Source of the DNA: Chthoniobacter flavus
GTDB lineage: Bacteria; Verrucomicrobiota; Verrucomicrobiia; Chthoniobacterales; JACTMZ01
NCBI GenBank assembly: GCA_945878135.1
Contig: CAMDUL010000009.1
Coordinates: forward strand, 1 to 64,000
Reading direction: 5' to 3'
DNA: 64,000 nt
Below, piece after piece: positions 13,157-48,728 of this stretch. The position numbers and the translations under genes were made by a program. Position 1 is the first letter of the stretch, and each line of letters starts with the position of its first letter. The notes beneath the pieces were generated by a model. The model did not search any database, was not told the DNA's origin, and saw only the letters and a list, made by a program, of their open reading frames with translations.

Positions 13157-15799
13157 TTATTTCTGGCGGAATCCTTTGGCCGACATCGTGCCCGGCGGGG
13201 ACAGCTCGGGCGGCAAACCAAGGGGTTCGACGATCTCTTCCTGGTCGGAGTCATCTTCCGGGCGCAGCAATTGCCCGGCGGCATCCATGAGGCGCGCGGT
13301 GACAAAGACGATCAGGTTGCTCTTGATTTTCTGCTCAACCTCGGAGCGGAAGAGTCCGCCCGCGACCGGGATATCCCCGAGGATGGGGACCTTGTCGTTC
13401 ACCTTCTGGACGTCCTCGCGGATCAGGCCGCCCAAAGCCACGGTCTGGCCGTCCCAGATGCTGACATTGGTCGTGACTTTGCGCGTGCTGAAGATGGGTT
13501 GGTTGATGACGTTCTCGGTGAGGATGCGGGGGGTGGTGGGGGTGAAAATGTCCAGCAAGCTGGCAACTTCGTTGGCGGTGCCCGCGCCGGTGACAGCGAA
13601 ACTTTGGCCAAGAAACTGACGGCTCGGCACGCTGATGGGAGATCCGTAGTTGATGAAACCGTCGAAGTCGACTACTTCGGGGCTCAGCGTGAGGTCGATG
13701 GTGTAGCCGTCCGGACCGATCTGCGGTTCGACCTCCAAGGTGACCCCGAGGTTGCGCGTGGTGAAGTCGGTGGGGAAGCTTGGGGTGACCACCGGATCGC
13801 TCGCCACGGCATTGCCCGTGACCACCGCGGAGCCGCCACCGCTGTCTTGCGGCACCTGAGGCGGTTCGAATTCCTGCGGGTAAGGGAACTCGCGGCTGAT
13901 GCTGATGGTGGCCTTCTGCCCGCTCTTGGTTGTGACCTTCGGTGCGGCCATCAAGTCGAAGCCCTTTTTCTGGTTGAGGGCGCGGATCACGAGTTGGAAC
14001 TGCGGGTTGGTGAAGACACCCGCGATGGAGAAGATGCCCGGTGCCGGGCCGCCGGTGGCGGCCACGCCCAGGTTTCTCGAGATGAGGCCGTTGAGACTGT
14101 TGACGGAGAGAGCCGAGTTTGCAGCGGTGCCACTGCCGGTGCGGAGGCCGGAGGTGAGGGCGGTTCCGCCCACAGCGGCGCCGGTGGCGGGATTGACGAA
14201 GGGGTAGGCACTGGGGTCCCCGATAATTTCGCCACCTCCGCCGTAAACGCCCGAGCCTCCGATGGAAAAGGGACCGAGCGACCAGTCAAAGCCGAGCTCC
14301 TTCAGGTTGTCCTGGGTCACCTCGACAAATTTGGCCTCGATTTCCACTTGGGTGGGTTGCTCGCCCATGGCGGCGTCGACGAGAGACTCAATCAGGTCGA
14401 GATTGGATGCGGTATTGCGCACGACCAAGCGGCTGCTGCCCGCGCTGAAGTTGGCGCTGGCTCCGGGAGGAAATTCGACGCCCTGCGACTCGAGAAAGTC
14501 CCTCGCGTTCTGTCGAGCGGCCAGTTTCGGGCCACCTGCTTCTTCCCCGCCCCGGCCTGCCACCGCGACCGGTTCAGCAGTCGCACCTCCACCTGTGCCC
14601 GTGATGAAGCCGGGGGGCACCTTGAATTCGCGCTGCTCGAGGGTGTCGGTCGGTTCGGACAACGGGACGATGGACACGGCGAAGGGCTCGACCTTGACCT
14701 TGAGTCCGGCCAGCGTGGCAACGTAGCGGAGCGCTTCGTAGAGCGGGACATTGGTCAGGTTGAGCGTGACTCGGGCGTCGGCCGGGGCGGCTGCCGCGGC
14801 CACCGGTTGTCCGAACTCATCGGTCTCCGCCGCCGCGGCGGGGGCCCCGGCCGGCAGTTTGAGGACGATGTTGATGCCCGTCTGTTCGCCTTCGGTGTCG
14901 CCGGGCGTGTCCAAGGCGCGGCTTTGCTGCTGGAGGAAACTGACGGCTTGCCGGATGGAGGCGTCGCGCAGGTCGATTTTCGGCACGATGATCCGGTTGA
15001 GCCGGGCAATCATCATCTCGGTGCCGCGGCGTTCGTCCTGCAGGGCCGAGGAGTCTGTGGTGCGGGCCTCGACGAAACGGCGTTTGGGCCGTTCCCAGGC
15101 CTTCTCGACCTGCCAGAGCATGCGCGAACGGGTCTCGTTGTAGGCGCTGTCATAATAGCGCTGCTTGCCCAGTTCGACCTGCTCCATGCCGCGAAAAGCA
15201 GCTGCGTTGTATTTGTCGACGGCCAGAACCTGCTGGTAACGCTTTTGCGCCAAATCGAAGCGTCCCGAATCGTAGAATCCCGTTGCTTCGTTGAGCAGGC
15301 GCTCGACCTCGGACTGGTCGGCGGCGAACTCCGGGGTGATCGTTTTGTTGAAGTAGTCGGGCTGGTCGAGGCGGTCGAGAAAGACCGCGGCGGGGCGGTA
15401 GCCGGGATTGTAGCGCGGCTCGAGGACCTCGCGGGCCACGGCGGCGGCCCGGGCATACTCGCCTTGGCTGACGAGGTATTCCGCGTAGCGCACCGAGAGT
15501 GAGGAGAAGCGTGAAATGGCGCGTGACCGCAAACCGCGGGCCGTCGATCCATCGGGCACAAGGTCAGCCGCCCTCTTGGCCGACTCGTAGGCTCCCTCGA
15601 TATTGTTCTGGCGCAGCTGCGCTTCGCTGGCTTGGAGGGCCTCCTGGGCGAGGACGACGTCTTCCTGTCGCCGGGTGATTTCGCGGTCGGCCTGCGACTC
15701 GAGCGGACCGGCGTACGAATCGCCTCCGGACCCCGCGGTCAGAACGGGAGCCGAAGCAATGGCGAGGTGGAGGGCCAGCAGGGGCGCGCGAAAGTTCAT
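13157..15799 (-). CDS. Amuc_1098-like pilus secretin (second, promoter-distal copy)
   Basis: Signal peptide, TPR-like N-terminus, PDYFNKTITPEF block, C-terminal secretin domain (SIWDGQTVALGGLIREDVQKVNDKVPILGDIPVAGGLFRS). Confidence 0.9.
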   Translation of the reverse strand: MNFRAPLLALHLAIASAPVLTAGSGGDSYAGPLESQADREITRRQEDVVLAQEALQASEAQLRQNNIEGAYESAKRAADLVPDGSTARGLRSRAISRFSSLSVRYAEYLVSQGEYARAAAVAREVLEPRYNPGYRPAAVFLDRLDQPDYFNKTITPEFAADQSEVERLLNEATGFYDSGRFDLAQKRYQQVLAVDKYNAAAFRGMEQVELGKQRYYDSAYNETRSRMLWQVEKAWERPKRRFVEARTTDSSALQDERRGTEMMIARLNRIIVPKIDLRDASIRQAVSFLQQQSRALDTPGDTEGEQTGINIVLKLPAGAPAAAAETDEFGQPVAAAAAPADARVTLNLTNVPLYEALRYVATLAGLKVKVEPFAVSIVPLSEPTDTLEQREFKVPPGFITGTGGGATAEPVAVAGRGGEEAGGPKLAARQNARDFLESQGVEFPPGASANFSAGSSRLVVRNTASNLDLIESLVDAAMGEQPTQVEIEAKFVEVTQDNLKELGFDWSLGPFSIGGSGVYGGGGEIIGDPSAYPFVNPATGAAVGGTALTSGLRTGSGTAANSALSVNSLNGLISRNLGVAATGGPAPGIFSIAGVFTNPQFQLVIRALNQKKGFDLMAAPKVTTKSGQKATISISREFPYPQEFEPPQVPQDSGGGSAVVTGNAVASDPVVTPSFPTDFTTRNLGVTLEVEPQIGPDGYTIDLTLSPEVVDFDGFINYGSPISVPSRQFLGQSFAVTGAGTANEVASLLDIFTPTTPRILTENVINQPIFSTRKVTTNVSIWDGQTVALGGLIREDVQKVNDKVPILGDIPVAGGLFRSEVEQKIKSNLIVFVTARLMDAAGQLLRPEDDSDQEEIVEPLGLPPELSPPGTMSAKGFRQK

Positions 15800-15803
15800 G
15801 GTG

Positions 15804-18266
15804 TCAGGGGAGCGGAGGCTCGATCGGGGCGGCGTCGGGAACATCAAGGGGCAGTTCGTCCATGGTCTCCGCCGCGAAGTCCTGTTGGGCGAGGGCCATG
15901 GGTTGGCCGGCGGGGTCCATCAGCGTGGCGGTGACGAAAATGATCAGGTTTCGCTTGATATGCTGGTCGGCCTGCGACCGGAAAAGGCCTCCGACCAGCG
16001 GGACGTCGCCGAGGAGCGGGGTCTTGTCGTTCACCTTCTGCACATCCTCGCGCATGAGCCCGCCGAGGGCGACCGTCTGGCCGTCATAGATGCTGACGGA
16101 AGTCTCGACCTTGCGCTGGCTGAAGACGGGATAGTTGATGACGTTTTCGGTGACGACGACACCTTGGTTGAAGATGGGGCTGCCGTAGTTGATGAAGCCT
16201 TCGAATTCCGTGACCTCGGGCAGAAGGCGCAGGTCGATCGTGTAGTTGTCCGCGCCGACTGTCGGTTCGACCTCGAGCCGGACGCCGACCGGCTTCATGG
16301 TGAAGGACGTGGGGGTGGCCGGGGTGATCGGCTGGGTGCCGAAACCGGTTTCCTGCGGAATCTGCGGCGGTTCGTATTCCTCGGGATAGCGGAACTCCCT
16401 GATCACTTCCACGGTGGCCGAAGAGCCGCTTTTGGTCGTGACTTTCGGGGCGGAGAGCACGTCGATGCCCTTTTTCTGGTTGAGGGCGCGCAGGACGACT
16501 TGGAACTGCGGGTTGGTGAAAATGCCGGCCATGGACAGGATGCCGGCGGCGGGCGCCGTGAGGGGGTTGCCGAGGAGGAGGGCATCGAGGGCGTTTGCCG
16601 CGATGGCGGTGCCGCCCGTGCGGTTGCCGGCCGTGAGCGGTCCGCCGAAAGGCGGACCAGCCACCGGCGTGGTGGTGCCGGGATAGAGGAAAGGGTAGTA
16701 GCCTGAGTTGCCCGCGGCGGGGGTCAAGGCATTGAACTGGTTTCCCACCGTGCCGCCGCCGGCGTAGACGCCGGAGCCGCCGCCGAGGGCCAACTGGCCG
16801 AGCAACCAGTCGAAGCCGAGTTCTTTGAGATTGCGTTGCGAGACCTCGACAAACTTCGACTCGATCTCGACTTGCGAGGGGACGGCGCCGGTGGCGTTTT
16901 CCACCAGGGCATCGACCAGGTCGAGATTCTCCTGGGTGTTGCGGACGATGAGACGGCTGCTGCTGGCCAGGAAGTTGGCGCTGGCGCCGACCGGGAACTG
17001 CACGCCTTGTCCTTCGAGGAAGTCTTTGGCGCCGCTGCTGACCACGGTGTCGCCGCCGGTGTCGGCACCGGCCCCGCCGCCGGCGGGCAGGCTGGTGATG
17101 AAGCCCGGGGGCACGCGGTATTCCTTGGTGATGAGCGTGTCGGTCGGTTCGCTGATCGGCACGATGAGAACGGCGTAGGGCTCGACCTTGATTTTGAGGT
17201 TGGCCAAGCGGGTGATGTAGTCGAGCGCTTCGCGCAGCGGGATATTGGCGAGGTCGATGGTGATGGTCTGCGAAGCGGCCGCGGAGTCCAGTTTCAGCAC
17301 GATGTTGACCCCGCGGTCGCCGTCCGCCGGGTTTCTATCCTGCTGGGCGGAGACATTGCGCAGGTATTCGATGGCCTCGCGCACGGTGGCGTCGGTGAAG
17401 TTGAGCCGAGGGATGAGGATCTCGTCGAGTTTGCGGTTGACCGACTGCGTGCCGCGGCTGGTCAGGACGGGCTGCTCGAGCACGGCGGCGGGGCCGAGAT
17501 CGGCGCGTTTGACCGGAGTTTCCCACGCCTTGTCGACCTCGGTGATCATGGCCGCCCGCGTGTCATTGTAGGCGGCGTCAGCCACGCGGGTGCGGGCCAA
17601 GTTGACCTGTTCCATGCCCCGTCGAGCCGCGATGTTGTAGCGGTCGAGGCGCAAGACTTCCTCGTATTTGCGGAAGGCTTCGTCGAACCGCGCGGAATCG
17701 TAAAGACCTTGGGCGTCGAGGAGCAGCTTTTTGACTTCCTCGACTTTGCTGACGAAGCCCGGAGTGACCGTCTTGTTGAAGTAGTCGGGCGCCTCGAGGC
17801 GGGCGAGGAGGCGCTGGGCGGGCTTGTAATTCGGGTTGTATTGCGGCTGGAGCAGCACCTGGACGGTGGTCTCGGCGTCTTCCCAGCGACCTTCGGCGAT
17901 GCGTTGCTCGGCCAGTCCCATGACCGCTTTGGAGAAACCGTCGAGGGCGATGGCGCGCAGGTGGCGGACATTGGGCGCATCGGGCAGGGAGTCGACGGCC
18001 GCCTTGTATTGCGCGTAGGCCGTTTCGTATTCGCGGCGCATCAGCGCTTCCGAGCCCCGTGCCATGGCTTGGGGCGCGTATTCCTCGGCCAGGCGCATGC
18101 GCTTGGCGATTTCAAACTCGGCCTGCGCTTCGACCCCGGACATGGCCGCGGCACCGCCACCGGGCCCGGCGGTGAGGTGGGAAAAGGGGAGGCCAAGGGC
18201 CAGAGAGGACAGGGCGGCCTGCCGCCAGCGGGGCGGCAGAGAGCGGGTGGTTCGCAGGGGATGCAT
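15804..18266 (-). CDS. Amuc_1098-like pilus secretin (first copy)
   Basis: Same architecture: PDYFNKTVTPGF and SIYDGQTVALGGLMREDVQKVNDKTPLLGDVPLVGGLFRS. Confidence 0.9.
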   Translation of the reverse strand: MHPLRTTRSLPPRWRQAALSSLALGLPFSHLTAGPGGGAAAMSGVEAQAEFEIAKRMRLAEEYAPQAMARGSEALMRREYETAYAQYKAAVDSLPDAPNVRHLRAIALDGFSKAVMGLAEQRIAEGRWEDAETTVQVLLQPQYNPNYKPAQRLLARLEAPDYFNKTVTPGFVSKVEEVKKLLLDAQGLYDSARFDEAFRKYEEVLRLDRYNIAARRGMEQVNLARTRVADAAYNDTRAAMITEVDKAWETPVKRADLGPAAVLEQPVLTSRGTQSVNRKLDEILIPRLNFTDATVREAIEYLRNVSAQQDRNPADGDRGVNIVLKLDSAAASQTITIDLANIPLREALDYITRLANLKIKVEPYAVLIVPISEPTDTLITKEYRVPPGFITSLPAGGGAGADTGGDTVVSSGAKDFLEGQGVQFPVGASANFLASSSRLIVRNTQENLDLVDALVENATGAVPSQVEIESKFVEVSQRNLKELGFDWLLGQLALGGGSGVYAGGGTVGNQFNALTPAAGNSGYYPFLYPGTTTPVAGPPFGGPLTAGNRTGGTAIAANALDALLLGNPLTAPAAGILSMAGIFTNPQFQVVLRALNQKKGIDVLSAPKVTTKSGSSATVEVIREFRYPEEYEPPQIPQETGFGTQPITPATPTSFTMKPVGVRLEVEPTVGADNYTIDLRLLPEVTEFEGFINYGSPIFNQGVVVTENVINYPVFSQRKVETSVSIYDGQTVALGGLMREDVQKVNDKTPLLGDVPLVGGLFRSQADQHIKRNLIIFVTATLMDPAGQPMALAQQDFAAETMDELPLDVPDAAPIEPPLP

Positions 18267-40447: not shown

Positions 40448-41224
40448 GTGGTCGCGAGTCTTGGCAGTTACACCATCGGGCGGGTGAGGGGATTGGGCGG
40501 CTTCGCTCTCTTCATCGCCCGTTCCCTTGGCGCCGTCTTCTCCACGCGGCGACTTCCCGCGCGGATCGGCCGCGCCGTCTACGAGCAGGGCTTCCGCTGC
40601 CTGCCGGTCATTCTCATCGTCGGCATGTTCACCGGACTGGTTCTCGGCCTGCAGGGCTACTACGTGCTCAACCGCTTCGGATCGGAGGGCCTGCTCGGCG
40701 CCTTGGTTTCCTTGAGTCTGGTCCGGGAAATGGCGCCCGTCCTCGCCGCACTGATGCTCGTCGGGCAGGCCGGTTCCGCTCTCGCCGCGGAGTTGGGAAT
40801 CCAGCGCAACTCCGAGCAGATTGTCGCCCTTGATACAATGGGCATCGACAGCCACGGCTATCTTGTCACCCCGCGCCTGCTCGCCGCTCTTTTTGTCTTT
40901 CCGGCGCAGACCGCGCTGTTCGTCGCGGTCGGCCTGTGGGGCGGCAGCCTTTCCGGCTCGCTGCTTCTCGGAGTCGACCCGGGTATCTACTGGTCATCGG
41001 TCCACCGCGCCGTGGAGGCCGAGGATGTGCGCGAGTGCCTGATCAAAGCGCTGACCTTCGGCGCCCTGACCATCGGCATCTGCGCGTATCAGGGATTCCA
41101 TGCCCACCGCATCCGTCGGGCCACCGGGGCGCGCGCGGTCAGCGCGGCCACGACCAAGGCAGTGGTCATCTCCAGCATCGCGGTGCTGGCCGCGGATTAT
41201 GTCATCACTTCGTTCCTGGTCTGA
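40448..41224 (+). CDS. MlaE family permease (second locus)
   Basis: SLVREMAPVLAALMLVGQAGSALAAELGIQRNSEQIVALDTMGID; GTG start. Confidence 0.94.
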   Translation: MVASLGSYTIGRVRGLGGFALFIARSLGAVFSTRRLPARIGRAVYEQGFRCLPVILIVGMFTGLVLGLQGYYVLNRFGSEGLLGALVSLSLVREMAPVLAALMLVGQAGSALAAELGIQRNSEQIVALDTMGIDSHGYLVTPRLLAALFVFPAQTALFVAVGLWGGSLSGSLLLGVDPGIYWSSVHRAVEAEDVRECLIKALTFGALTIGICAYQGFHAHRIRRATGARAVSAATTKAVVISSIAVLAADYVITSFLV

Positions 41225-41228
41225 CGCG

Positions 41229-42038
41229 ATGACGAGCCCGAAGACAGGACCGCTTTTGCGGGTCGGGGGATTGCGCAAGGCATTCGACGAACGTGTTGTC
41301 CTCCGCGACGTGGGCTTCGCCGTCGAGCGCGGGAGTATTTTCACCGTGCTCGGTCCGAGTGGCGCGGGAAAATCGGTTCTTTTGAAGTGTCTCGCCGGCG
41401 TGGAGCAACCGGACGGCGGCACGGTCTTGTTCGAAAGCCAGCCGCTCGATTTCCGCGACCGCGCCATGCGCGAATCGTTCCGTCGCCGGTGCAGCTTTCT
41501 TTTCCAGGGCAACGCGCTTTTCGATTCCCTGACCGCTCTGCAGAATGTGGCCTTGCCGCTCGAGCAGACCACGCCGCTTTCGCGCGGCGAAATCAACCGG
41601 CGCGCCATGGAGGCGTTGCGGCAGCTGGAATTGGATGATCATGCGGACCGCTTCCCCGGGATGCTTTCCGGCGGGATGCAAAAGCGGCTCGCGCTGGCCC
41701 GGGCCATTGTCACCCATCCGGAAATGGTTTTCTTCGATGAGCCCACGGCCGGGCTCGACCCTCTGCGGCGCAACGCGGTTTTCGCCATGATCGCCAAATA
41801 CCAGGCGGTGTTCGGGTTCACCGCCTTGATTGTCACCCACGATGTGGTCGAAGCGCTGGCCGCCAGCTCCGTGGTCGCCCTGCTCCACGAGGGAGAAATC
41901 TGCTTTGCCGGCCGTCCGGAAGAGTTTGCCGCCTCCGGCCATCCGGTGGTTCAATCTTTCCGCGACAGCCCCGCGGCCTTGCGTTCGACCCTGGATGCCA
42001 TGCGCAGGGGCGGTGCTTTGACGGAGGAAAAAGAATGA
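41229..42038 (+). CDS. MlaF-like ABC ATPase (second locus)
   Basis: GPSGAGKS, LSGGMQKRLALARAI, VFFDEPTAGLDP. Confidence 0.94.
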   Translation: MTSPKTGPLLRVGGLRKAFDERVVLRDVGFAVERGSIFTVLGPSGAGKSVLLKCLAGVEQPDGGTVLFESQPLDFRDRAMRESFRRRCSFLFQGNALFDSLTALQNVALPLEQTTPLSRGEINRRAMEALRQLELDDHADRFPGMLSGGMQKRLALARAIVTHPEMVFFDEPTAGLDPLRRNAVFAMIAKYQAVFGFTALIVTHDVVEALAASSVVALLHEGEICFAGRPEEFAASGHPVVQSFRDSPAALRSTLDAMRRGGALTEEKE

Positions 42039-42538
42039 GAGACAAGAAACTCGAACTCGGCGTGGGGGCCTTCATGCTCCTCGGCTTGGCCGCGCTCGTT
42101 TACCTCACGGTGAAACTCGGGGCGGGGGAATTCGTCGGTGGCGATACCTACCGGGTCGAGGCGCGCTTCGCCAACACCGGCGGTCTCAGCCAAGGGGCCA
42201 CCGTCATGCTGGCCGGGGTCATTGTCGGGCGCGTGGAGGGGATCCGGCTCGACGAGGCCGACTACAGCGCAATCGTCGACCTGCGCATCCGTTCGGAGGT
42301 GCGGCTGCCGTCGGACACCATGGCCTCGATCAAGACGTCGGGTCTCATCGGCGACAAATACATTGCGCTTGCGCCGGGGGCGGAAGAGGAGTTTCTTGAA
42401 CCCTCCGCCCGCATCATCATGACCGAGTCTGCCGTCGAACTTGAGTCCCTGATCAGCAAGATGGCGTTCGGCAGCGTGAACGAAGCCGAGGCCGGCTCTC
42501 CGCAGGAGGCGGCGGCAACTCCCGTCCCTGCACCATGA
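42035..42538 (+). CDS. MlaD-like MCE-domain protein (second locus)
   Basis: N-terminal TM; NTGGLSQGATVMLAGVIVGRVEGIRL, SSGLIGDKYI-type motif; GGAGG 8 nt before ATG. Confidence 0.93.
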   Translation: MRDKKLELGVGAFMLLGLAALVYLTVKLGAGEFVGGDTYRVEARFANTGGLSQGATVMLAGVIVGRVEGIRLDEADYSAIVDLRIRSEVRLPSDTMASIKTSGLIGDKYIALAPGAEEEFLEPSARIIMTESAVELESLISKMAFGSVNEAEAGSPQEAAATPVPAP

Positions 42539-43107
42539 AACTCCTGTCCCTCCTCCTCGGCTCCGCCATGGTGCTGGGCGCGCCGGCGCGGGCCGCGGGC
42601 GATGCCGAGTCCAGCCTGCGCGAGGGAATGAGTGAGGTCCTTGCGGTGGCCGAAGGGGCGAAGGGCGGGCGTACGATGGCCGACCGGCTCCAGCCGATCC
42701 TCGAAAAGCGTATTTGCTTCGAGTCAATGACCCGCCGCGCCGTCGGCCCCGGTTGGCGTCAGTTCACCCCCTCGCAGCAAGAAGAAGCCACCAAGCTGTT
42801 CACCAAGCTGATCATCCGCAGCTACAGCAGCAAGTTCACTCCCGGACAGCGGCCCGAGGTGAATTATTTGAAGGGCACATCGCCGGCGCCGGGCAAGATC
42901 GAGATCCCCACCACGATACTCTACAAGGGCAGTCGCTACAGCATCGTCTACCGCATGGAAAACCGCGGACGCTGGCTGGTCACCGACATCCTGGCCGAAG
43001 GCGTCAGTCTCGTGGCCAACTACCGCGCCCAATTCGACGGGCTCTACAAAAAAGGCGGCGCCACGGCCGTGCTCGACTCGCTCCGGCAATCCGTGGCCCG
43101 GACTTGA
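42535..43107 (+). CDS. MlaC/Ttg2D-like ABC transporter substrate-binding protein
   Basis: Signal peptide; FESMTRRAVGPGWRQFTPSQQEEATKLFTKLIIRSYSSKF. Confidence 0.93.
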   Translation: MKLLSLLLGSAMVLGAPARAAGDAESSLREGMSEVLAVAEGAKGGRTMADRLQPILEKRICFESMTRRAVGPGWRQFTPSQQEEATKLFTKLIIRSYSSKFTPGQRPEVNYLKGTSPAPGKIEIPTTILYKGSRYSIVYRMENRGRWLVTDILAEGVSLVANYRAQFDGLYKKGGATAVLDSLRQSVART

Positions 43108-43883
43108 TGAAACTTTTTCTTCCCACCCTGGCTTGCGCCGCGCTGGTGTTCTCCGCCGGTTGCGCGGGGCAAGCCGGGGAAAACGCACCCGGCGCCGCTG
43201 CGCCGACGGGCAAAGCAGTCGCGTCCGGCGGGGCCGATGCCGATTGGGACGAGGTGGCCGAGGTCAAGGTCCACGATCCCATCGAACCGGTGAATCGCGG
43301 CTTATTCTGGTTCAATCACCAACTCTACACTTACGTGGCCAAGCCTTTCTCCAAGGCCTACAAGTTTGTTTTCCCGCAGCCGGTGCGCCATGGCATCCGC
43401 AATGCTTATGACAATATCCGTTTCCCGGTTCGCCTGGTGAATCACACCCTGCAGGGGCGCCTCGACCGCAGTGCCAAGGAAACCGGCAAGTTCTTGGTCA
43501 ACACCACCGCGGGCGTGGGTGGAATCATGAAGCCCTCCGAAAAAATCCCCGCGCTGGCCGACTTGCCGTCGGCCGACACCGGCCAGACCTTCGCCAAATG
43601 GGGCGTGCCGCACGGCCCCTATGTCGTTTTGCCGGTCCTCGGCCCGAGCAGTTGCCGCGATGCAGTCGGCACCGCCGGCGACACCGCGCTCAATCCCATT
43701 TCCTGGCTCACCTTCGTGTTCGGCGGCGCGGCCTGGACCACGGGGGTCTCGGCGCCTTCCGGGACGCACAGTTTGCCCGACCGGATGGACACCTACGATC
43801 TGGCCACCAAGGACGCCGTTGATCCCTACGTCTCCGCGCGCACCGGCTACATCCAATACCGCAACGCCGCGGCCCGGCGCTAA
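43107..43883 (+). CDS. MlaA (VacJ) family lipoprotein
   Basis: Lipobox LVFSAGC; DPIEPVNRGLFWFNHQLYTYVAKPFSKAY; GPYVVLPVLGPSS. Confidence 0.95.
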   Translation: MKLFLPTLACAALVFSAGCAGQAGENAPGAAAPTGKAVASGGADADWDEVAEVKVHDPIEPVNRGLFWFNHQLYTYVAKPFSKAYKFVFPQPVRHGIRNAYDNIRFPVRLVNHTLQGRLDRSAKETGKFLVNTTAGVGGIMKPSEKIPALADLPSADTGQTFAKWGVPHGPYVVLPVLGPSSCRDAVGTAGDTALNPISWLTFVFGGAAWTTGVSAPSGTHSLPDRMDTYDLATKDAVDPYVSARTGYIQYRNAAARR

Positions 43884-44178: not shown

Positions 44179-44207
44179 TTGACGGATTTCTCCAACGACA
44201 TTATCAC
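44179..44207 (+). promoter_or_regulatory. Sigma-70-type promoter for the riboswitch transcript
   Basis: TTGACG - 17 nt - TATCAC; predicted start ~7 nt downstream, just ahead of the aptamer. Confidence 0.6.
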
Positions 44208-44235
44208 GGAATCGCGTTCTTTTGCATGACAAGCA

Positions 44236-44372
44236 TCCGGATCCGTCCGGGTGAGACCGATGGGCAGACCAAGGGAAGGCCGTGAGATCCGGCCACAGTT
44301 GCGCTGCGGTATCCGGTAACAATCCTTCATCCCGCGTCAGCGGGAGCAAAGCCAGTCCGACCCGTGTCGGGC
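44236..44372 (+). ncRNA. Cobalamin (AdoCbl-type) riboswitch
   Basis: AAGGGAA - GGCCGTGAGATCCGGCC - ACAGTTGCGCTGCGGTA - CCCGC/GCGGG hairpin - AGCCAGTCCGACCCG; matches the ordered conserved blocks of the family; 5' CGGGT (44248-44252) can pair with 3' ACCCG (44360-44364). Confidence 0.78.
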
Positions 44373-44583
44373 GAAGGCGAGGGGAGAGGCGAGCGCCACG
44401 GCGCTCACAGACCGGGAGTCCGAATATCTTCCTGCCCATCCTCGACGCGCACGCGGCCGGGTGGCCGCGGGCGAAAAATCTTCATCGCAAGAAATGAAGC
44501 GTGCGGGAGTGGTCTTTGCTGATCGTTTCCACGCGGAACGCCTCATCAAGGTCTCTCTTGCCACCAAAACAAGAAGACAACTG

Positions 44584-45432
44584 ATGAAAAAATGGTTCGT
44601 GGCGCTGCTCGCGCTGCCAATGCCGGGTTTGCCGGCGCAGCCCCGGGTCGACAACTTCGACCAGATCCAATACTGGGTCGGCTCGGGCCAAAACCGCGCC
44701 GCGCTTGTTCTCCAGTGGAATGACGGACGGAATCCCGTTTCGCTCGCTTGGGGTTACCGGTGGGATGGTGCCGCCACCGGGCTCGACATGCTTCGCGCCG
44801 TCGCCGGGAGCACGCAAACCGATGATCCGGCCGGGGACCCGGTGGATTCCGGGGCGGGAGCCGACAGCCGCTTGAGACTCGGCTTGGTGCAATACAGCTT
44901 CGGGCTCTCCGTTTTGTCCCTCGAGTATTCCCCGGGCGAAGGCGCCGTGCGGACCCAAAGCGATTGGTTCAACGGTTACTGGGAGTATCTCCTCCGCGGA
45001 GGCAACTTCGAGTATTACGACTGGTCGGCGGGCGACATGGCTCTCTATGACGTTGCCGGTTCGAGCAGCTATTCTCCGGACGCTTGGACCTCGGCCCCGA
45101 TTGGCGCGGGCGATCGGCCGTTGATCGACGGCGCATGGGACGCCTACAGCTTTGCTTCCGATTTCGATACCCGGCCCGTCGGGCAACCCGTCGCCGCCGG
45201 GTTGCCGTTGCCCGCCACGTCTTGCCTCATGGACGGGGGCAAGCCCGCGGTTTCGGTTCTCACCCAAACCAACTTCCTCTACCGGCTGGAATACAGTGAC
45301 AGTCCGGGAGGCCCGTGGGCCCCCGTGGGAGACAGCGAGCCCGGCACGGGCGGGGAAATGATCTTTGTCGACGAAACCGCGGAACTCCCGCCGCAGCGAT
45401 TCTACCGCATCGCGGTGAGCCAGGCCCCATGA
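44584..45432 (+). CDS. Secreted protein of unknown function downstream of cobalamin riboswitch
   Basis: Signal peptide; IQYWVGSGQNRAALVLQWNDGRNPVSLAWGYRWDGAATGLDML; C-terminal TNFLYRLEYSDSPGGPWAPVGDSEPGTGGEMIFVDETAELPPQRFYRI. Confidence 0.85.
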   Translation: MKKWFVALLALPMPGLPAQPRVDNFDQIQYWVGSGQNRAALVLQWNDGRNPVSLAWGYRWDGAATGLDMLRAVAGSTQTDDPAGDPVDSGAGADSRLRLGLVQYSFGLSVLSLEYSPGEGAVRTQSDWFNGYWEYLLRGGNFEYYDWSAGDMALYDVAGSSSYSPDAWTSAPIGAGDRPLIDGAWDAYSFASDFDTRPVGQPVAAGLPLPATSCLMDGGKPAVSVLTQTNFLYRLEYSDSPGGPWAPVGDSEPGTGGEMIFVDETAELPPQRFYRIAVSQAP

Positions 45433-46193
45433 GGAAAAATCACGCTTTCACCCTCGTCGAACTGCTCGTGGTCATCACGACCGTTGTCGTGCTTTGCGCC
45501 GTGGCGGCGCCGGCTGTCTGGGGCGCCTACAAGACCTCCTCGCTTGCCGTCTCGGCCAACAACATCCGTCAGCTCGCCGCGGGCGGCGCCGCTTATCTCG
45601 GCGACAACAACTATCGCTTCTGGCCCTACCGCCGCGACGGGGAAATCGGGGGCGTGAAAGGTGCCATCTGGTGGTTCGGCTTCGAGCCCGGCAAAAGTTT
45701 GGGCAAGCCCGAGGGACAGCGCACCATCGACATGGACAACGGACCGCTCGGGCCCTACGTGCCGCGCAACATCACGCCCGATCCGAGCTTCGGCTTCGCC
45801 GGCACGCCCTTCAAACCGAAATACAAACACGGCTACATCGGCATCGGTTACAACGTCCTGCTCGCCGGCCGGAACGGCTGGACGACCGGGGGCGGCCCGC
45901 CGCTGCGGTATTGGGACCTGCCGAATCCCGGCCGGACCGTCGTTTTCGCCACCGCCGCGCAGGTCAACACCTTCCAAAAGCCGGCCAGCCCGCGCAAGCC
46001 GATGATCGAGGAATTTTACGGCTTCGACGACGACCGCGGAAAGATTCCATCCGTCCACTTCCGCCACAACGGACGCGCCATGGTGGCCTATGCCACGGGG
46101 GCGGCCGGACTGGTTCCGATGGACGAATCCGGCAAGGACCGCCGCGCTCCCGAGGCCAATGTCGGCCGGCTTGCCCCGGAGGCGCTGCGCTGA
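45429..46193 (+). CDS. Type IV pilin-like / type II secretion pseudopilin-like protein
   Basis: Prepilin motif KNHAFTLVELLVVITTVVVLCAVAAPAVW; ATGA overlap with preceding gene. Confidence 0.88.
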   Translation: MRKNHAFTLVELLVVITTVVVLCAVAAPAVWGAYKTSSLAVSANNIRQLAAGGAAYLGDNNYRFWPYRRDGEIGGVKGAIWWFGFEPGKSLGKPEGQRTIDMDNGPLGPYVPRNITPDPSFGFAGTPFKPKYKHGYIGIGYNVLLAGRNGWTTGGGPPLRYWDLPNPGRTVVFATAAQVNTFQKPASPRKPMIEEFYGFDDDRGKIPSVHFRHNGRAMVAYATGAAGLVPMDESGKDRRAPEANVGRLAPEALR

Positions 46194-46276: not shown

Positions 46277-47563
46277 ATGAGATTCGACACCCTTTGCCTC
46301 CACGGCGGACAGCAACCCGATCCGACCACCCTTTCACGCGCGGTGCCCGTTTACCGCACCAGTTCCTTTGTCTTCAAGAGCACCGAGCACGCCGCGAACC
46401 TTTTTGCGCTCAAGGAGTTGGGCAATATCTACACGCGGCTGATGAACCCCACGACCGACGTGCTGGAAAAGCGGGTTGCCCTGCTCGAAGGCGCTCCGGA
46501 AATGGGCGGACTCGGCGTCGCCTCCGGCACCGCGGGCGTTTTCTACTCGATCATCAATCTGGCCTCGGCCGGCGACAATATCGTCAGCGCCCGCAACCTC
46601 TACGGCGGCACCTACACCCAGTTCAACGACATCCTGCCGTCCCTCGGCATCAAAGTGAAATTCGTCGATTCGAACGATCCGCAGAATTTCGCCAAAGCGA
46701 TCGATGACAAAACCCGCGCGCTGTTCGTCGAAACCGTTTCGAATCCCGCGCTGGAAGTCGTTGACCTGGAAAAAGTGGCCAAGGTCGCACACGACCACGG
46801 CATCCCCCTCATTGTCGATGCCACCTTTTCCACACCCTACCTGACCAAGCCGCTCGATTTCGGGGCGGACATTGTCATTCACTCCCTGACCAAATGGTTC
46901 GGCGGTCACGGCACCGGCATCGGCGGGGTGGTGGTGGACAGCGGACGATTCAACTGGGGCGCGGGCAGGCATCCGCTCTATGACAATCCGGACAACAGCT
47001 ACCACGGACTCCGCTGGGGCCACGACCTGCCGGCGCCGCTGGCCCCTCTCGCCTTCATCCTGCGCATGCGCACCGTCCCGCTCCGCAACCTCGGCGCCTG
47101 CATCGCGCCGGACAACTCTTGGTTCTTCCTGCAGGGCATCGAGACGCTGCCTCTGCGCATGGAAAAACACTGCGCCAATGCCTTGGTCGTGGCCGAGCAT
47201 CTCAAAAAACACCAGGACGTCGAATGGGTCCGTTTCCCGGGCCTGAAGGACGATCCGTATTTCGACCTGAACAAGAAGTATCTCCATGGAAAAGGCGGTT
47301 CCATGGTCGTGTTCGGGATCAAAGGCGGCGCGCCGGCCGGCAAAAAGTTCATCGAATCGCTCAAGATCTTCTCGCACCTGGCCAACGTGGGTGACGCCAA
47401 GAGTTTGGCCATTCATCCCGCCACCACCACGCACTCGCAACTCAACGAGGACCAGCAACGCGGGGCCGGTATCACGCCGGAACTCATCCGTCTCTCCATC
47501 GGCATCGAAGACCCGGCCGACCTGATCGAGGATATCGACCAGGCTCTGGCCGCGGCGAAATAG
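46277..47563 (+). CDS. metY: O-acetylhomoserine aminocarboxypropyltransferase/cysteine synthase family PLP enzyme
   Basis: MRFDTLCLHGGQQPDPTTLSRAVPVYRTSSFVF; SLTKWFGGHGTGIGG PLP-lysine motif. Confidence 0.94.
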   Translation: MRFDTLCLHGGQQPDPTTLSRAVPVYRTSSFVFKSTEHAANLFALKELGNIYTRLMNPTTDVLEKRVALLEGAPEMGGLGVASGTAGVFYSIINLASAGDNIVSARNLYGGTYTQFNDILPSLGIKVKFVDSNDPQNFAKAIDDKTRALFVETVSNPALEVVDLEKVAKVAHDHGIPLIVDATFSTPYLTKPLDFGADIVIHSLTKWFGGHGTGIGGVVVDSGRFNWGAGRHPLYDNPDNSYHGLRWGHDLPAPLAPLAFILRMRTVPLRNLGACIAPDNSWFFLQGIETLPLRMEKHCANALVVAEHLKKHQDVEWVRFPGLKDDPYFDLNKKYLHGKGGSMVVFGIKGGAPAGKKFIESLKIFSHLANVGDAKSLAIHPATTTHSQLNEDQQRGAGITPELIRLSIGIEDPADLIEDIDQALAAAK

Positions 47564-47573
47564 GCACCACGAC

Positions 47574-48728
47574 ATGAGCAAAGGCGTCGGCGAGGTCGAA
47601 ACACAGTTTCTGACCTTCGGCAGCGCGGACGATCCGTTCGTCACCGCGGGCGGCGATCGTCTGCCCGGGGTGACCATTGCCTACGAGACTTACGGCGAAC
47701 TCAACGCCGACCGCAGCAACGCCATCCTGCTCTTCCACGCGCTCAGCGGCAGCCAGCATGCCGCGGGCACGAACAACGCGGTGCCGGGGACCGATCACCG
47801 GTGGACCGAGGAAATGCACACCGGTTGGTGGGACGGCTTCATCGGGGCGGGACGCGCCCTCGACACGGACAAATATTTTATCATCTGTGCGAACTACCTG
47901 GGCGGCTGCTACGGGTCGACCGGTCCGTGTTCGGTCAATCCGTCCACCGGCCAAGTCTACGGCGGCAACTTCCCGCGCGTGACGGTCCATGACATCGTCC
48001 GCGCGCAACTCCCGCTGCTCGACCATCTCGGCATCGGGAAGTTGCAGGCCGTGGTCGGCACCTCGCTGGGCGGCATGATGGCTCTCGACTTCGCCGTGCA
48101 CTGGCCCGACCGCGTGACCAACGTCGTCACCATCGGCACCGGCCTCCGCTCGCACGGCCTGCAGCAAATGCACAACCTCGAGCAAATCATCGCCATCACC
48201 CGCGACCCGGATTTCCGCGGAGGTGACTACTACGGCACACCGGGGCCCGTCCACGGCCTCGCCCTGGCCCGCATGATCAGCCACAAAACGTTCCTCTATG
48301 CCGACGTCATCGAGGAGCGGGCCCGTGTGGACATTGTCAAACCCGAGACGGATTTGCCGTGGTATGAAATCTCCAGCGTCCTCGAGAGCTACATGCTCTA
48401 CCAGGGCCAGAAGTTCGTGAAACGCTTCGACGCGAATTCCTACCTCCGCATCATCGACGCCTGGCAGCAGTTCGACCTTTACGGCGACGCGAAAAAGGCC
48501 GGATGGCAGCCGCTTTTCGGGCGCTGTCGGGACCAGCACTACCTCGTCTTCACTATCGACAGCGATTGTTGCTTCTATCCCGATTACCAGACCGAGATCT
48601 GCGGGGAGTTGAAAAAAGCGGGCGTCCCGCATCTCCGCCTCACCGTGCATTCGGAAAAGGGCCACGACAGCTTCCTTCTCGAGCCCAAGCTCTACACTCC
48701 TCATCTGGCCTACGCGCTGGGGCATTGA
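47574..48728 (+). CDS. metX: Homoserine O-acetyltransferase
   Basis: ILLFHALSGSQHAAG, VVGTSLGGMMALDFAVHWP nucleophile elbow, C-terminal GHDSFLLE. Confidence 0.95.
   Translation: MSKGVGEVETQFLTFGSADDPFVTAGGDRLPGVTIAYETYGELNADRSNAILLFHALSGSQHAAGTNNAVPGTDHRWTEEMHTGWWDGFIGAGRALDTDKYFIICANYLGGCYGSTGPCSVNPSTGQVYGGNFPRVTVHDIVRAQLPLLDHLGIGKLQAVVGTSLGGMMALDFAVHWPDRVTNVVTIGTGLRSHGLQQMHNLEQIIAITRDPDFRGGDYYGTPGPVHGLALARMISHKTFLYADVIEERARVDIVKPETDLPWYEISSVLESYMLYQGQKFVKRFDANSYLRIIDAWQQFDLYGDAKKAGWQPLFGRCRDQHYLVFTIDSDCCFYPDYQTEICGELKKAGVPHLRLTVHSEKGHDSFLLEPKLYTPHLAYALGH

Follow-up and report, generated by a model that had tools for sequence, protein, structure and literature searches.

What is controlled by a cobalamin riboswitch when the genes behind it resemble no established vitamin B12 gene? 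The question is raised by a locus of Chthoniobacter flavus in the window (the whole stretch of 64,000 nucleotides that was analysed), in which the riboswitch is followed by a gene for a secreted protein (gene A, product P0001) and a gene for a pseudopilin-like protein (gene C). The reading favoured here, with a probability of roughly 0.85, is that gene A encodes a secreted, transcobalamin-like corrinoid-binding protein that is made when B12 is scarce and belongs to a B12-capture unit. The locus comprises the following features:

44179-44207, forward strand: promoter-like sequence TTGACG-17-TATCAC, from direct reading and plausible only
44221-44449, forward strand: cobalamin riboswitch aptamer, full-length (RF00174, 46.4 bits)
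44480-44499, forward strand: conserved hairpin CTTCAT-loop-ATGAAG, nearly invariant in eight congeneric leaders and folding in the window
44544-44586, forward strand: hairpin over the ribosome-binding region and start codon, in which GGTCTCTCTT pairs with the purine-rich ribosome-binding region and CATCA with TGATG
44584-45432, forward strand: gene A, secreted protein of 282 amino acids with a transcobalamin-beta-like domain (residues ~20-205) and a separate C-terminal domain (residues ~207-282)
45429-46193, forward strand: gene C, pseudopilin-like protein of 254 amino acids with a degenerate H-X9-DG motif (H-X9-TG)

The cobalamin riboswitch had been recognised in an earlier reading of the letters (hereafter the sequence-only reading) and was confirmed by covariance search against Rfam, in which RF00174 matched positions 44221-44449 of the forward strand at 46.4 bits (gathering score 31.5, E = 1.8e-08). 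The match spans the full model (1-189) above the curated cutoff; no other Rfam family exceeded its cutoff in the 64-kb window, and this is the sole RF00174 match in the whole C. flavus assembly that was searched (2.64 Mb, 56 contigs, 90.7% complete). RF00174 also precedes gene A in the congeneric loci L003, L004, L005, L006, L007, L011 and L012. The element itself is ordinary, whereas the genes under its control are not, and with a single element of ~230 nt in 2.64 Mb, and its placement before gene A repeated in several phyla, the arrangement of riboswitch and gene A is beyond chance. The promoter that had been read in front of the aptamer is present in the letters as written (TTGACG at 44179-44184, 17 nt, TATCAC at 44202-44207), and TAT-rich sequence occupies the columns aligned to it in some related species, but it was not listed by the consensus promoter scan, because the scan requires T as the last letter of the -10 hexamer, which is lacking here.

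The end of the aptamer is separated from the ATG of gene A (44584) by 134 nt, and not by the expression platform of ~210 nt originally described. A terminator-like site was sought in this leader and not found. In eight congeneric leaders, an invariant GGTCTCTCTTG pairs with the purine-rich stretch 5' of the start codon, and in most of them the CATCA-TGATG pairing lies over the start codon itself; the pairing of the ribosome-binding region folds in 8 of 8 species, and both helices fold in the full leader of the window. When the hairpin pairing was placed on the alignment, 84% of the cells were paired, compared with at most 58% when it was slid, and three cells were changed on both sides. This pattern of conservation suggests that the hairpin at 44544-44586 is the likely translational expression platform and that control is translational. 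By analogy with B12 riboswitches in general, low intracellular cobalamin would leave the ribosome-binding site open and allow translation of gene A, and at high cobalamin the conserved hairpin would shut the ribosome-binding site and start codon.

Homologs of gene A were searched for in 57 related genomes and in 84,980 species genomes, and matches to the C-terminal part of P0001 (residues 207-282), which occur in many large unrelated proteins, were left out of the family. Relatives were identified in Verrucomicrobiota, Planctomycetota, Armatimonadota, Kiritimatiellia and Flavobacteriia, and additionally in one metagenome genome each with the label Neomarinimicrobiota or Paceibacterota, both possibly misbinned. 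The family shares the conserved core WxGxGxNxAALVxxWNDG...LAWGYRWDG...DML...(YW)...G.S.R.L.DG.WD. An association of homologs with cobalamin riboswitches, put forward as a check in the sequence-only reading, was found. Outside Bacteroidota 43 distinct copies were counted, two of which have too little upstream sequence, leaving 41 that could be assessed. A cobalamin-class match (RF00174 or AdoCbl-II RF01689) lies upstream on the same strand in 40 of these 41, at or above the Rfam cutoff in 35 and, in the right place, below it in five (L062, L073, L075, L082 and L083). Alone among the testable homologs, L043:10001-10669 has no such match in its vicinity; it lacks an adjoining pseudopilin gene as well. 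The AdoCbl-II class stands in place of RF00174 before gene A in L009, L015, L017, L075, L080 and L083, and the presence of two riboswitch classes before one gene family argues that B12 control has been selected for and not simply inherited. Nineteen genomes contain a single RF00174 match, and in all of them it is located upstream of gene A; by arithmetic, a random site would fall within 500 nt and in the correct orientation in about one of ten thousand genomes of 3 Mb. The homologs are related and the trials therefore not independent, but phyla are spanned nonetheless.

In Flavobacterium/Chryseobacterium-type loci (16 of 16), the riboswitch lies 4.6-5.9 kb upstream of gene A. In the four annotated loci of this type, a gene for a TonB receptor is followed by one for a DUF5074 propeller protein and by that of a third protein; gene A, fused to a BtuG-family propeller, closes this BtuB-BtuG-BtuH operon. 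At L044, the receptor matched Plug PF07715 and the B12-receptor model TIGR01779 (E = 5e-21, below cutoff), the third protein is a BtuH homolog (7biz, E = 7.7e-43; 8blw, E = 3.9e-68), and gene A encodes a single polypeptide in which a P0001-like domain is joined to a DUF5074 (BtuG-family) propeller (E = 1.9e-119) and a type IX secretion tail. The fusion and the operon are the strongest non-structural link to a putative role in B12 capture.

Searches of Pfam and NCBIfam with P0001 and of PDB sequences with gene A yielded no match. Pfam DUF4430 was not matched by any of 51 family members at E-values of up to 10, and BtuG, BtuH and DUF4465 (BtuJ) gave no match in P0001, in the scanned family members or in PDB sequences. 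Neither gene A nor gene C product matches a corrinoid enzyme or BtuB, BtuF, BtuC or BtuD, in agreement with what had been stated from the letters, and no description of the gene A family was found in the open-licence literature. The AlphaFold model of P0001 (pLDDT 82.5, with the transcobalamin-like domain mostly above 90) was compared with the PDB using Foldseek and matched transcobalamin at a probability of 0.96; low-probability immunoglobulin-type matches had slightly better E-values and apparently come from the C-terminal domain. Because of this immunoglobulin-fold crowding in the full P0001 search, a domain-only model of the divergent homolog L032 was used, which is 47% identical to the domain in the window (AlphaFold pLDDT 96.0, pTM 0.92). 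Its top 19 PDB matches are all haptocorrin, transcobalamin, intrinsic factor or Ruminococcus gnavus 3u7z, a DUF4430-like protein, at probabilities of 0.72-1.00 and with a TM of 0.74 on the isolated transcobalamin beta-domain; the next match stands at 0.02 and all others listed at 0.04 or less. The Foldseek E-values for this model are 0.05-0.3; the result draws its strength from the drop in probability after these matches and from how uniform they are. As these E-values are modest and sequence methods detect nothing, the likeness of the predicted domain to the animal B12 carriers is a remote structural resemblance, and gene A is described as transcobalamin-like by fold and not as a DUF4430 member. 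A profile-profile comparison of gene A with DUF4430 gave the expected register (probability 1-1.5%, E = 0.035-0.05), an unrelated profile scoring as well; being not significant and no better than the unrelated comparison, it was set aside as evidence.

The transcobalamin-like clade of the SLBB beta-grasp superfamily, which includes animal TC, IF and HC as well as DUF4430, was defined by a hairpin after the helix, and B12 scavenging was predicted for its bacterial members, with planctomycete members also mentioned (Burroughs et al., 2007, PMC1796856). Gene A is alike in its secreted state, and the hairpin after the helix is present in the predicted L032 model (helix 45-55, then strands 59-66 and 69-77). 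However, it differs from this clade in being undetected by Pfam DUF4430, in having no alpha-barrel partner domain, in its PEP-CTERM, type IX or other C-termini, and in its cobalamin riboswitch control and pseudopilin partner. The DUF4430 genes fetched for comparison adjoin nrdJ, a cobalamin adenosyltransferase or ECF transporter genes. Riboswitch-controlled extracellular B12 capture, proposed for gene A, is also the function of BtuG, BtuH, BtuJ and BtuK, the surface B12 lipoproteins of Bacteroides (PMC6143338, PMC8941943, PMC12751083, PMC13398666), and homologs of BtuB, BtuG and BtuH share an operon with flavobacterial gene A. Unlike these lipoproteins, gene A is no lipoprotein, is predicted to adopt a beta-grasp and not a propeller, BtuH fold or DUF4465 jelly roll, and is found in genomes without a TonB receptor match.

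Gene A would be exported by means of its signal peptide, and in most of its homologs retention at the surface would rely on PEP-CTERM or type IX sorting. PEP-CTERM was matched in 25 of 51 family members and is absent from gene A of C. flavus. Residues 207-282 of P0001 (window 45202-45429) form a domain common to many large secreted proteins of the group; this domain type takes the place of PEP-CTERM in four species and is possibly another sorting or anchoring domain. The beta-grasp domain very probably binds corrinoids outside the cell. As counterpoints, beta-grasp relatives can bind other ligands, and animal carriers clasp B12 between two domains, whereas gene A has the beta-domain only. The earlier proposal of a surface corrinoid-binding or uptake factor nevertheless gains support from the riboswitch link, the BtuB-BtuG-BtuH operons and the predicted beta-domain fold. 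If true, this would provide a function for a widespread family without a Pfam domain, and the fold with which animals carry B12 would be found also in capture proteins under riboswitch control from at least five named bacterial groups (Verrucomicrobiota, Planctomycetota, Armatimonadota, Kiritimatiellia and Bacteroidota).

The two-gene unit that had been described stands, as the stop of gene A (44584-45432) and the start of gene C (45429-46193) overlap by ATGA and gene C carries the prepilin N_methyl motif (PF07963, 25.6 bits against a cutoff of 21.2, E = 8.6e-06). In NCBIfam, gene C matched TIGR02596 weakly (29 bits against a cutoff of 70). Although the C. flavus genome holds 32 N_methyl matches, the C-terminal part of gene C is far from the other pilins of the genome (195 versus at most 31 bits). 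The N-terminal prepilin motif is common to gene C and the Verru_Chthon cassette / H-X9-DG pseudopilins of PVC bacteria, from which gene C differs in being a lineage particular to this locus that accompanies gene A, and in having T for the D of H-X9-DG. Of 40 testable loci, 34 have a pseudopilin gene adjoining gene A; two loci of Armatimonadota have it 5' of gene A, directly after the riboswitch. Gene C is also present in genomes with TonB receptors, and secretins are present in the C. flavus genome; two secretin genes lie in the window at 13286-16487 on the reverse strand. Export or display is the more likely role of the pseudopilin, although it might also serve for import, which would be a novelty. 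Most likely, the pseudopilin would be a component of type II secretion or type IV pilus-like machinery by which gene A reaches the surface; the support for this part of the sequence-only reading is the conserved adjacency. In several loci a further gene, gene B, is found between A and C, and a gene B-type domain is fused to one or two A-type domains (L067:9779-12259; L081:1487-3271). Gene B bears a faint resemblance to BtuH (E = 0.0016, probability 16%) and has no PDB match.

Some of these observations could also be accommodated if gene A were a surface-matrix or adhesion protein tied to B12 status that captures no corrinoid, given that PEP-CTERM is a sorting signal common to many unrelated extracellular proteins and that gene C is of a general pseudopilin type abundant in the genome. 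The fusion to a BtuG-family propeller, the placement in BtuB-BtuG-BtuH operons and the predicted transcobalamin-beta fold make such a function highly unlikely. Gene A could alternatively bind corrinoid in sensing, in storage or as a periplasmic chaperone and have no part in surface capture, in line with the replacement of the homologs' PEP-CTERM by another C-terminal domain in C. flavus; this appears unlikely in view of the homologs with PEP-CTERM or a type IX tail, which are the usual marks of surface or released proteins.

The riboswitch might, moreover, mainly serve metY (46277-47563) and metX (47574-48728), with genes A and C as passengers, as these genes begin ~84 nt after gene C and recur as neighbours in several congeneric loci. 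In distant loci, however, no met genes were seen beside gene A, and it is gene A that the riboswitch accompanies from phylum to phylum; the products MetY and MetX serve to make homocysteine and are no B12-independent substitutes for MetH, which is itself present in the genome, so that this explanation is considered very improbable. As an observation in its own right, the position of metY and metX (46277-48728) beside gene C is a link between B12 and methionine synthesis.

Under the preferred reading of gene A as an extracellular corrinoid-capture protein, the captured corrinoid would cross the outer membrane, via BtuB in Flavobacteria, and a BtuF-like/FecCD ABC system would take it further into the cell to supply MetH and methylmalonyl-CoA mutase. 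The C. flavus genome encodes both of these enzymes, a BtuF-like binding protein (NCBIfam BtuF, 64 bits, below cutoff) and two FecCD permeases; neither CbiC, which is needed for de novo corrin synthesis, nor a TonB receptor plug was found in this 90.7% complete genome. Of the 39 genomes outside Bacteroidota that carry gene A and were searched, 22 likewise gave no Plug match, among them an assembly of 4.8 Mb in 3 contigs and one of 20 contigs. Missing contigs can explain single absences, but not the pattern. A testable question is thereby posed, namely how B12-needing diderm bacteria without a detected TonB receptor bring B12 across the outer membrane. One speculative and unlikely answer would be that, where TonB-dependent receptors are lacking, gene A and its dedicated pseudopilin constitute a TonB-independent outer-membrane route for B12, in which corrinoid caught by the surface beta-domain is carried or gated into the periplasm by a machine of the pseudopilus type. 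Heme would then be handled in the same manner by the parallel pseudopilin cassette that adjoins heme oxygenase and a FecCD transporter.

Two further arrangements were noted in the same genome. The locus is preceded in the window by a complete mla lipid-transport operon (MlaE, ATPase, MlaD, MlaC and MlaA; 40448-43883). On contig C4, a heme-type operon with a layout like that of the gene A locus (L092:4470-10431) contains, in order, genes for a PEP-CTERM protein, a secreted protein with a C-terminal domain of the P0001 type, a pseudopilin (with an ATGA overlap), heme oxygenase, a periplasmic binding protein, FecCD and an ABC ATPase.
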